A stretch of 64,000 nucleotides of DNA. Source: Xylaria sp. FL1777 (lineage: Eukaryota > Ascomycota > Sordariomycetes > Xylariales > Xylariaceae). The translations under genes and the position numbers were made by a program. The stretch lies in contig MU400612.1 of assembly GCA_022578965.1 (NCBI GenBank), forward strand, positions 62,001-126,000. The letters run 5' to 3'. Shown one piece after another: positions 2,882 to 30,196 of the stretch. The first letter of the stretch is position 1, and each line of letters starts with the position of its first letter. Under the pieces are notes generated by a model that was given only the letters and a program-made list of their open reading frames with translations, did not search any database and was not told the origin of the DNA.

Positions 2882-5431
2882 TTACCAACCTTTTTTCCGC
2901 GCGAATCGTTTGTTCAGTAGAGCCAAGACCTTCGTGACATTGAATTGAACATATTCGAGATCAAGGTCATCCTGGTTGTCTTTTTGCATTTCAAGGAGGT
3001 CGTCAAGCTTTAGATCAAGCTCAAGTAATCCCCGGTTGCGTCCTGTTATCATTAGTCATGGAATGGCCACAGATGGATTCAGGTGTCGTCTTACCTTTGT
3101 AGTGTAGAGAGATGACAAATGTACCTGGCAGGGGACTTGTGAAATTGAAGTAGATATTCGCTCTCCTATTGTCGGGAACATTGCTCTTCTGAATCACACC
3201 TTCTTTCTCCAACTGCTGATGTGTGAACTTGTAGGGCCCTAAGACTTGGTGCTTTTGCTGCTTTCGTCGTGTGCCTTCTGATTGGCTTCGTACGTTATGC
3301 AGATAGCTCTTGTAGGTCTCGAGTTGACCGACAAGGTACGCGTTGTGATCTCGAATTGTTTTATAGACTTCCTCAAGTTTCTGGGTTTCCTGATGAACGC
3401 CTTCCTTGAGTGACCCGAGGTGGGACAACTCCTGCTCAACTTCATCACGGAGGGAGCCGAATTGATCAGACTTGCTGATAGTCTCCATATCTTGAAGTTG
3501 GCTGAGTAGTTCTATTGCTCGGATGCCTTTGCGCACCATGACTGCATCATTACGGGATGTAGCAGCTGCATCAGCGATTTTTTCTAGGCGTAAGGGCTTG
3601 CGTGTAACAGCGGTGTGTTGAGGGAAGGATCGAATGATTTGGACGAAGATGTTTTTGGCCTCCAAAAAGAAAATTTCCTCTTGCGTGATATCCATATTTT
3701 GCGTCATGTTTTCAAATGTCTGCTCCCAGCGGCTAAAGAGAGGCAGATTAATAGCCCTGTTCTCCTTCCTCGGAACTTGTGCGGGAGCATGCCCTAGCTC
3801 CAACATAATCAGAGCTAGATGCGAGCGCTCATCCTTACAAAGTTCTCCACGGTGCTTCTCGATAAGACCATGCATTGCGTATATTTCGTTGAGTGTGATG
3901 GAAAGCTCCAGGTTATTCTTGGTGAGCGCCACATATTTGTCCATCTCCAAAGTTTCATAGAAATCTTGCACTTCACAAAGATCTAGCATGAACTTGTTTA
4001 CCCGGTCTTTATTTTGCTGAATAAATGGAGACAGCTTGGCCATGTACGGTTCCTTCGCATACGACGGCTTGTTGGCGAGGTTCTGTAGCATTTTAGCAAT
4101 GAGAGTCAACGTTCGTCGCGGCCTTTCAGCGGGCATCCCATCAATTAGCATATACGACTTGGGTGTGACGATCGCTGGGTTGATGAATCGAAGGAAGAAA
4201 AAGCCACCAATCAACGTGCATATAACTTGATCATTGGCTTCTGGGTATTTTCGCTTCGTCAAGCTCCGAATTTGCTTGCAGATCCACCGAATACCGTATG
4301 GCGCTTCGTCGAGTCCATCAATAATTGTTGTCAAGAAGCCATTCGCGATATCGGTCAACATGGTCAACCGCGGCTCGATGATGGCCTGCACTTGGAGATT
4401 GTCGGCAGCCTGTTCTCCAGTGATGCCCTTAGGTAATGATGCAGGTAGGCTGCCGGTGTCCTCCTCAATCTGTTGGCACATGCGCTCGTAAACCTTAAGT
4501 GGATTAATCTCTAAATCAAGGTCTTGCAATTCAATGAGGCTGTTGATCCTATCAGCTAGCACCGTTCGCAGGAAACTCTGGCCAGGTCCACGCCTAGTGT
4601 ATGTAGTCATCATTCGAGAAACGGGAGTGTTGGCGCGAAGAAGGGATGAGTATTCAGGGGTCGTATCGAACTGATATGTCAATACAGACTAAGCCTTAAT
4701 GTTAGAAGAGGCCGCCTAAGTGTTAGAGATAATCGTTGACTTGCCTGAAACATCGTCAAGAGCAAATGCTCTTCACGGCTTTCATACTGATTACCATAGA
4801 CAGTGAACATGACTGTTTGAAGTAGAGAATCAATCTCAGCCATCGATACGAGTCTGCACAGATGTGCGATGTGTTTGGGTTCGGTTTGCAACAAGAACAA
4901 CAGATTGCCATATTTCTGGGTTTTCTCATCGTTGGGAAACACTCCCTCTTCTAGTTCCAGCGCATCTTCGAGATGGCTAGCCACTTCATTTTGCTACGTC
5001 ACAATTAATACCCGTCACAGATCAAGGCATTATGATGTCTTACCTCCTCCAAAGCCATACGGTTTTGGATCAATAACGCAATGCGAGAGTCTAGATACCG
5101 CACATCTTTTTCAAGGACAAAGTTCTTCTTGGATTGCGAGGAAATCTTTGACTTCAAGTCCCTAAGTATTTTCTGCGCTGATTTGTTGTTAGGAAACGCC
5201 TGGTAATTATTCAGGATTGGCAGCCTCACCTTTGGCCAGTTCGTCGTCGATCTCAAGCTCCGTCTCATTTGCGGACATAGACATATATAATGCAGACATA
5301 GAATATCTCTTGCTCTGCCGCGCCGATCGTGTACCATCATAAGAGGACATTGTGTTTTGACGCGAGATGGGCTGGAAGGACGAAGAAGAAGCCGTGGAGG
5401 CCCTCGACGGAGTTTGTAGCATGACTGACAT
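2882..5431 (-). CDS. gap1: Ras GTPase-activating protein (Gap1/Sar1/GapA family)
   Basis: This protein stimulates GTP hydrolysis by Ras at the cell cortex and so switches Ras signalling off; family members act in polarity, mating and conidiation. I read five exons: 5431-5230, 5177-5044, 4993-4745, 4688-3095 and 3042-2882, giving 779 residues. The N-terminus is Ser/Thr-rich. The RasGAP domain spans about 150-430, with an arginine-finger context [10 protein letters not shown] (Arg213) and the structural motif FLRFINPAI (about 362-370). A RasGAP C-terminal domain fills about 560-770 and ends in [13 protein letters not shown], as in Pezizomycotina homologues. Intron 3 has a GC donor. The start at 5431 is the first in-frame ATG of the recognised exon. 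An extra upstream exon is possible, because an open minus-strand segment at about 5590-5820 contains TPTSRLSPLNRL but has no ATG. The family call is very secure; the N-terminus is less so. Confidence 0.95.
4689..4744 (-). other. Non-canonical GC-AG intron in the RasGAP gene
   Basis: This 56-nt intron is bounded by CAG|GCAAGT and GGCTTAG|TCT and carries CTAAC branch-like sites. The exons on either side join in phase 0 (MFQ-SVLTYQF), and the joined sequence matches the conserved RasGAP domain. No GT donor gives the correct junction. CAG|GCAAGT is the classical strong consensus of GC-AG introns. Confidence 0.85.
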
Positions 5432-29542: not shown

Positions 29543-29675
29543 GCCCGGTTAGCTCAATCGGTAGAGCGTGAGACTCTTAATCTCAAGGTTGCGGGTGAGT
29601 AACACATCTCCTTCACAACATAAAACGCTTCACTGGTACTAATTCCAGCAATAGGTTCGACCCCCGCATCGGGCT
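29543..29675 (+). tRNA. tRNA-Lys(CUU) split in the T arm by a 60-nt GT-AG element
   Basis: Joining 29543-29594 to 29655-29675 gives a perfect 73-nt lysine tRNA. It has acceptor stem GCCCGGT/ATCGGGC, D stem GCTC/GAGC, anticodon stem TGAGA/TCTCA with loop CTCTTAA (anticodon CTT), variable loop AGGTT, T stem GCGGG/CCCGC with loop TTCGACC, and discriminator T. There is no intron at the usual 37/38 site. The break falls between the fourth and fifth T-stem bases (or at the stem/loop border, since G flanks both sides). The internal A box is intact. The B box GGTTCGACCCC is also intact, because the inserted segment ends in G. Pol III transcription therefore remains plausible, but a functional tRNA requires precise removal of the insert. 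If it is not removed, this is a pseudogene. Confidence 0.9.
29595..29654 (+). other. 60-nt spliceosomal-intron-like insert in the tRNA-Lys T arm
   Basis: The segment begins GTGAGT and ends AATAG. It carries TACTAAT at 29637-29643, placing a branch adenosine about 12 nt from the 3' AG. Its length falls among the protein-gene introns in this window (49-289 nt, most under 110). The exonic junction is GCGG|GTTCG. These are the hallmarks of a fungal U2-type intron, not of a tRNA-endonuclease intron, which would sit after position 37. A five-base pairing (GTTGC with GCAAT) between the upstream exon and the insert's 3' part is possible. I see no sequence relationship to other introns in the window. 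Confidence 0.75.
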
Positions 29676-30196
29676 CAATTCCTGATGCCTCCTAGGATAC
29701 TAGGAGTAGCAACCCAACTTTTTGCATCCTAACACAACTAACTGTAACAGCGAAATAAGAAAGATGTTATCATCTAATGCCCTACTCATTTTTCTGCATT
29801 ATCTTGATTTTTGACGTGGCGCGTAACCAGTGATATTACGCAAGACGATGCGTAACCTTTTCGGGATACCAACTCCGATGTACAGTCTATCTATCTGCCT
29901 TCAGTAGGTAGGTCTTGGCGTTATTCCGAGATAGCCTATAGGTACGCTGGGCATTGGTGCTTACGAAGTTCCCGCTAGGGTAAATAGAAGGGACCCAGCG
30001 CCTTTTGCACAGCACCAACGAGTCAACGACCGATCTACAACTTAGATCTCAATATATAATAGGAGTCTGCCACTGTAAAAAGGCATGTCCTCACGGACGT
30101 CCACTCATTGTAACTAAATACACAGCAGGGGAAGGAGTCCATAGATATTACATTATTCGTCATTCTACCCTCACTCGCTAGACGACCCCCACGACA
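29676..30196. promoter_or_regulatory. Region between tRNA-Lys and MFS transporter gene
   Basis: This interval contains the tRNA's T5 tract and the MFS promoter. No protein frame is convincing. Because both genes are on the plus strand, an upstream-initiated Pol II transcript of the MFS gene could in principle run across the tRNA. Confidence 0.4.
29719..29723 (+). terminator. Candidate Pol III terminator of tRNA-Lys
   Basis: A run of five T residues begins 44 nt after the tRNA's discriminator base. It is the first T-run of that length downstream. Confidence 0.55.

Follow-up and report, generated by a model that had tools for sequence, protein, structure and literature searches.

Probable spliceosomal introns in the T stem of tRNA-Lys(CUU) genes of Xylaria sp. 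FL1777

An interrupted gene and its four relatives

The stretch of Xylaria sp. FL1777 DNA analyzed here (64,000 nt, hereafter the window) carries on its forward strand a tRNA-Lys(CUU) gene whose T stem is interrupted. The 5′ exon (29543..29594) encodes tRNA positions 1-52, including the anticodon CTT at 29576-29578, and the 3′ exon (29655..29675) encodes positions 53-73. Between them lies a 60-nt GT-AG intron (29595..29654) that starts with the 5′ splice site GTGAGT (29595..29600), holds the branch site TACTAAT (29637..29643, with the branch A at 29642, 12 nt from the intron end), and ends with AATAG. The original prediction, made from the DNA letters, described a spliceosomal-type intron in the T arm whose excision leaves a perfect 73-nt tRNA-Lys(CUU), and both parts of this description hold. 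ARAGORN identifies the joined 73-mer as tRNA-Lys(ctt), adding one 3′ base (74), and its minimum-energy structure is a complete cloverleaf (-28.5 kcal/mol, RNAfold). No tRNA was called when ARAGORN was run in its no-intron mode on the unspliced stretch of 29543-29675.

Signals for transcription by RNA polymerase III (Pol III) are also present. They comprise the A box TAGCTCAATCGG (29550-29561) and the B box GGTTCGACCCC (29654..29664), assigned by comparison with the consensus sequences. The intron's final G supplies the first base of the B box, as had been noted from the window copy, and the arrangement AG|GTTCGACCCC recurs in all four interrupted copies introduced below. The gene reaches past 29543-29675, since a conserved 43-nt 3′ trailer (29676..29718) and a T5 run that is a probable Pol III terminator (29719..29723) are part of it.

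The genome assembly (58.7 Mb in 588 contigs, with the window on contig C107) was searched for the 24-nt 3′ end of the gene. It occurs five times, each with 0 mismatches where up to three were allowed, and a backwards control occurs 0 times. These sites mark the five tRNA-Lys(CUU) loci found, on contigs C107, C8, C95, C5, and C7. The search for further copies with inserts at the same place, as originally proposed, identified them on C8, C95, and C5. The T stem is interrupted between the same two bases (52/53) in four of the five loci, by inserts of 60 nt (C107), 58 nt (C8), 55 nt (C95), and 63 nt (C5). The exons of these four copies (L106-L109) are identical at 73/73 positions, although gene conversion could account for part of this identity. 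Of the tRNA-Lys(CUU) copies, only the C7 gene (L110, G000:C7:531595) has an uninterrupted T arm, with exactly the sequence predicted for the other four. It carries a 39-nt intron at 37/38, without which it is the same 73 nt as the other copies.

Outside these genes the loci are unrelated. Comparison with shuffled sequences places both the 60-nt upstream flanks (z -1.7 to 1.0) and the 60-nt flanks after the terminator (z -1.9 to 1.7) at background in all ten pairs. The earlier concerns that the window gene might be a pseudogene or its insert an assembly artefact are disfavored, the former by 73 invariant exon positions amid such flanks and the latter by the presence of same-site inserts on four separate contigs. 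The three window genes that could be mapped (see below) contain 58 AAG and 47 AAA lysine codons, so a tRNA for AAG is needed, though C7 alone might suffice.

Splice signals and the conserved trailer

Only three elements recur in all four inserts, namely GTGAGT at the start, a CTRAY branch site, and TAG at the end. The branch A of CTRAY lies 12 nt (C107), 14 nt (C8), 11 nt (C95), and 13 nt (C5) from the intron end, and the C95 insert holds a second CTRAY at 34 nt. The chance that a CTRAY whose A falls 7-15 nt before the end would appear in all four shuffled interiors is ~5e-6, a product of four rates from 20,000 shuffles each that does not count the GTGAGT and TAG ends. Apart from these signals, the interiors are no more alike than shuffles (z -1.7 to +0.7 for the six pairs). 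A genome search with the window 60-mer (E up to 10, by a method that skips very common words) returned one match, which was the query itself. A single match, together with four same-site inserts whose interiors are at shuffle level, indicates that the intron is old.

As a local reference, three proteins of the same genome (P0001, P0121, and P0160) were mapped exactly to three genes of the window. The eight mRNA introns obtained in this way are 49-77 nt long, a range that includes the 55-63 nt of the tRNA inserts, and comprise seven GT-AG introns and one GC-AG intron. GTGAGT begins one of the eight, and five have a CTRAY whose A is 7-13 nt before the end. TTTT can be read in three of the eight mRNA introns and in none of the four tRNA inserts, where no T-run exceeds 3, but these numbers are too few to claim selection against terminators. 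The third of the four introns of a Ras-GAP gene in the window (4689-4744) is of the GC-AG type and has two CTAAC sites.

By sequence, the inserts have the 5′ splice site, branch site, 3′ AG, and host-like length of U2-type introns. Identical exons, interiors at shuffle level, and retained splice signals form the pattern expected if only the splice signals of the insert are under selection. The inserts therefore look like an old spliceosomal intron that has been retained with its splice signals, and the pairing of conserved exons with diverged interiors argues against recent insertion, assembly error, and decay. The original prediction had offered two explanations. This evidence favors its second, an unusual route of removal; recent insertion of an introner-like element is opposed by the single match of the 60-mer in the genome search and by the diverged interiors of its paralogs.

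The trailer is 40-46 nt long in all five loci, followed in each by a run of 5-8 T residues, and is conserved among them (z 5.0 to 13.4 for ten pairs against shuffles). For comparison, in the 63 other ARAGORN tRNA genes of the fetched loci the first T4 follows after a median of 12 nt, and the distance is at least 40 nt in 7 of 63. Because C7 has the trailer as well, this element is not specific to the T-arm intron. Within it, a 7-bp hairpin (29689..29706 in the window) is paired in 100% of cells over five sequences, with changes on both sides in three of the seven pairs. For the whole 21-pair structure, the cells paired and the covariation score beat 500/500 shuffles, whereas the number of pairs with change on both sides was reached by 169/500 and the number of further pair types by 500/500, leaving two of five control measures not exceeded. 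Sliding the alignment by +3 columns also yields three pairs changed on both sides, but with 42.7% of cells paired versus 98.1%. With only five related sequences, conservation of the hairpin is supportive rather than proof.

For each of the five precursors before splicing, RNAfold gives a lower energy to an alternative fold, in which the 3′ acceptor strand pairs with the trailer (CCYGATGC), than to one with the native acceptor stem. The difference is 3.0-4.5 kcal/mol for the four genes interrupted in the T arm and 0.5 kcal/mol for C7. After splicing, this alternative fold is still favored by 1.6-2.5 kcal/mol in the four copies and is reversed by 0.8 kcal/mol in C7. We had considered a fold switch driven by splicing and dropped it, because the energies show no switch in the four copies with T-arm inserts. 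The longest pairing between trailer and exon (8) is equaled by 160-268 of 1000 shuffled trailers, and seven of the eight pairs never vary. Thus, the trailer hairpin is kept as supported and the fold switch is not; that the alternative fold serves as a hold on the precursor is our guess from the predicted energies. Separately, the trailer of a tRNA-Met(CAU) gene (L070, G000:C8:198152-198253, reverse strand) starts with CAATTCCTTGATGC, much like CAATTCCTGATGC of tRNA-Lys(CUU).

Searches for similar inserts in tRNA, U6, and other Pol III genes

A genome search with the tRNA model RF00005 scored 63 of 3048 candidates, which makes its results a lower bound, and the C7 gene is not among the matches listed. 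Within these 63 scored matches, T-arm inserts were found only in the four tRNA-Lys(CUU) genes. For each of the other 59, ARAGORN gives a tRNA that lacks an intron or has one starting at 33-40, and 16 of them were also inspected by eye. Some ARAGORN calls are plainly wrong, such as L070 and L071 as His, L027 as stop, and L075 with no identity.

Pattern searches of the genome yielded no additional cases. The 5′ splice sites GTGAGT, GTATGT, and GTAAGT followed by N30-60 and AGGTTCRANYCC have 6, 1, and 1 matches, respectively, compared to 1, 0, and 0 for the backwards control. Of these eight matches for the three spellings of the site, four fall in the tRNA-Lys genes and four at places where ARAGORN detects no tRNA. 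The pattern CTAAYN{3,25}AGGTTCRANYCC has 22 matches (control 3), of which two are tRNA-Lys genes and 20 have no tRNA according to ARAGORN. The same kind of search in prokaryotic and viral contig collections gave 0 matches, a result with no bearing on fungi.

Standard tools handle the interrupted genes poorly. An ARAGORN scan of the window lists tRNA-Val alone, and cmscan reports 29543-29597 at 31.3 bits, just above its cut-off of 29. When introns are allowed, ARAGORN recognizes tRNA-Lys(ctt) in the window copy, but the intron that it proposes (62 nt, at position 38) is incorrect for this sequence. It gives the C5 copy a 43-nt intron at 37 and yields no gene for the C8 and C95 copies. Therefore, automatic annotation can misplace or miss such tRNA genes.

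The search of the genome for U6 genes (best 47 of 2820 candidates scored) listed three loci, and two of them, on C1 and C18, carry mRNA-type inserts. These fall at three different sites in GAAACGAUACAGAGAAGAUUAGC. The C1 locus (L112, G000:C1:675236-675393, reverse strand) has one 58-nt insert of the form GTAGGC...CTAAC...ATAG with the branch A 11 nt from the end. This insert contains TTTT, and also a B-box-like AGTTCGAATTC that agrees by eye with 8/10 fixed positions of the consensus and is unmatched by a stricter pattern. At C18 (L114, G000:C18:120452-120548 and upstream, reverse strand), where the Rfam model matches only a 97-nt stretch, two inserts can be recognized by eye. The first is 63 nt long (GTAAGT...TTTAG, with CTAAC 18 nt from the end), and the second is 58 nt long, starts with GA rather than GT, and has TACTAAC 12 nt from the end. 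Removal of the inserts gives the same first 71 nt for the C1 and C18 genes. The third locus (L113, G000:C52:214978-215079, reverse strand) has no insert, and both its ends have diverged.

Judged by sequence, the Pol III genes of Xylaria sp. FL1777 with mRNA-type inserts are of at least two kinds, and the U6 loci point to another Pol III gene that is split alike. This parallel is weakened by the insert-free C52 copy, which could be the working one, and its further weak points are the GA start of the second C18 insert and the TTTT in the C1 insert. No insert was found in the 24 5S matches (111-121 nt; best 47 of 2107 candidates scored) or in the single SRP RNA match (278 nt on a 293-position model).

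A proposed route through the spliceosome and its alternatives

To our knowledge, known tRNA introns are removed by the tRNA endonuclease or by self-splicing (group I or group II). Full-text searches of open-access literature turned up no description of a tRNA gene with a spliceosomal intron. Fungal U6 introns have reportedly been surveyed by Canzler and colleagues. The closest precedent is the Pol III transcript U6 of fission yeast, whose splicing is impaired in pre-mRNA splicing mutants according to PMC10484740. The titles cited there attribute the mRNA-type intron of Schizosaccharomyces U6 to work by Tani and Ohshima, Potashkin and Frendewey, and Frendewey et al. Both systems involve a Pol III gene with an mRNA-type intron, and two of the three U6 loci found in the Xylaria genome carry such inserts too. 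In fission yeast U6 the B-box match lies inside the intron, whereas in Xylaria tRNA-Lys the intron completes the box. The host in Xylaria differs too, since it is a tRNA, which must be processed at its ends, modified at its bases, and charged, and its intron resides in the T stem of four paralogs rather than near the spliceosomal active site.

Interruptions of tRNA genes outside 37/38, including in the T arm, are also described for Cyanidioschyzon merolae and the Guillardia theta nucleomorph (PMC3978253, PMC4090602). In the parts of these sources consulted, the C. merolae introns are presented as endonuclease substrates that depend on a bulge-helix-bulge (BHB) motif, the G. theta insertions are 3-24 nt long with a removal route described as unknown (PMC4090602), and GT-AG ends with a branch site are described for neither. 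Other eukaryotic T-arm insertions are taken to be probable pseudogenes in this review, on the grounds that most occur in one of many synonymous genes, and the exceptions it makes are algal cases attributed either to the tRNA endonuclease or to a route it describes as unknown (PMC4090602). This one-of-many pattern contrasts with Xylaria, where four of five tRNA-Lys(CUU) loci are interrupted. Canonical 37/38 introns, which are processed by the Sen endonuclease and the Trl1 ligase, occur in the same genome and even in the same isoacceptor (the 39-nt intron of C7), and the T-arm insert differs from them in position, signals, and length. Two A. niger tRNA-Lys(CTT) genes are given as 73 nt and intronless in a table of PMC6108506, so the T-arm intron is not universal in filamentous ascomycetes.

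We consider it very likely that an old U2-type spliceosomal intron occupies position 52/53 in four of the five tRNA-Lys(CUU) genes found and that the Pol III precursor is spliced by the spliceosome. The cell probably uses its mRNA-splicing machinery to make this tRNA. The insertion site, the splice signals, the conserved exons around diverged interiors, the promoter boxes, the T-run, the trailer hairpin, and the similar U6 inserts can all be read directly from the DNA, and from them we infer transcription by Pol III, excision by the spliceosome, the order of steps that follows, and a functional product. Pol III would transcribe the gene from the A box and from the B box completed by the 3′ splice site, and the transcript would run through the structured trailer to the T-run. 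U1 and U2 would recognize GTGAGT and CTRAY, and the spliceosome would excise the intron bounded by GTGAGT and TAG through the CTRAY branch site. Only then could the T stem form normally, after which RNase P, tRNase Z, and CCA addition would finish the tRNA. Pol III transcripts do not have the cap that usually aids U1 recruitment, and this counts against spliceosomal splicing.

Rival accounts must explain the same features. Quite unlikely, in our estimation, is removal of the insert by Sen at an ectopic site, as proposed for C. merolae. Ectopic tRNA introns with BHB motifs are reported in that red alga, and T-arm insertions in a nucleomorph are excised by a route that PMC4090602 describes as unknown (PMC3978253, PMC4090602). 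In the GT-AG register, the central BHB helix forms 4/4 pairs in all four copies, two of the four pairs being G-U by eye. The flanks in this register are incomplete (1/3 exon-side and 0-2 of 3 intron-side pairs), and in two neighboring registers the flanking helices never exceed 2/3 pairs. The strict BHB test does not discriminate, because the ordinary 37/38 intron of C7 also fails it (2/4, 2/3, 1/3). GTGAGT and TTCG, both of which have other explanations, are enough to produce the central pairs, and Sen would not need GTGAGT, CTRAY, and TAG to persist in diverged introns. Moreover, a review restricts cleavage by the yeast enzyme to 37/38 (PMC4033280), whereas the intron is at 52/53 in all four interrupted copies.

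Somewhat harder to accept is that the interrupted genes are dead or decaying and that C7 supplies the tRNA. A T-arm-intact locus does exist that could by itself provide this tRNA even if the other copies were dead, and the review supposes eukaryotic T-arm insertions to mark pseudogenes (PMC4090602). Decay is difficult to reconcile with 0 differences in 73 exon positions across four copies whose introns and flanks are at shuffle level, or with splice signals, trailer hairpin, and T-run kept in all four. Reading of the loci by Pol II within a longer RNA, which would be spliced as mRNA and release the tRNA later, would explain access to the spliceosome with no new route. We regard this as highly improbable given the A box and B box, the T-run right after the conserved trailer in 5/5 loci, and the flanks (60 nt before the gene and 60 nt after the T-run), which are not conserved. 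Finally, fungal introner-like elements are short spliceosomal introns, and the insert resembles them and the local mRNA introns in form. We find it scarcely credible that a recent element of this kind entered one tRNA gene and undergoes splicing as other introners do, because the search of the assembly showed no second copy of the 60-mer, the intron is old, and four copies share the position while their interiors have diverged.

Spliceosomal removal of the T-arm intron would, if true, link mRNA splicing to the decoding of a lysine codon, imply that splicing can act on a Pol III transcript despite a strong competing fold, and offer a natural case for the entry of mRNA-type introns into Pol III genes. 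The U6 inserts suggest that the spliceosome of this organism may take Pol III RNAs as regular substrates. We see an evenly balanced case for a broader proposal, in which these genes represent a further class of tRNA intron, the T arm exists only after spliceosomal splicing, most genes for the lysine tRNA that decodes AAG are tied to spliceosome activity, and the trailer hairpin retains or shields the precursor until it is spliced and the tRNA can fold.

Two other observations concern B-box sequences elsewhere in the genome. Six fetched tRNA-Ala(AGC) loci (L091-L096, on G000:C194, C56, C54, C25, C17, and C4) have a second T-arm-like hairpin, GGAGGTTCRATTCCTCC, which amounts to a second B box a few bases 3′ in the trailer. 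In addition, GGTTCGATTCC, similar to a B box, occurs in a dispersed repeat whose copies share a tail at or near GGTATTCGCTAGTTAGCTCATCT. The repeat looks like a tRNA-related short interspersed element and is present at L037, L039, L041-L045, L047, L049, L051, L054, L055, L058, and similar loci.
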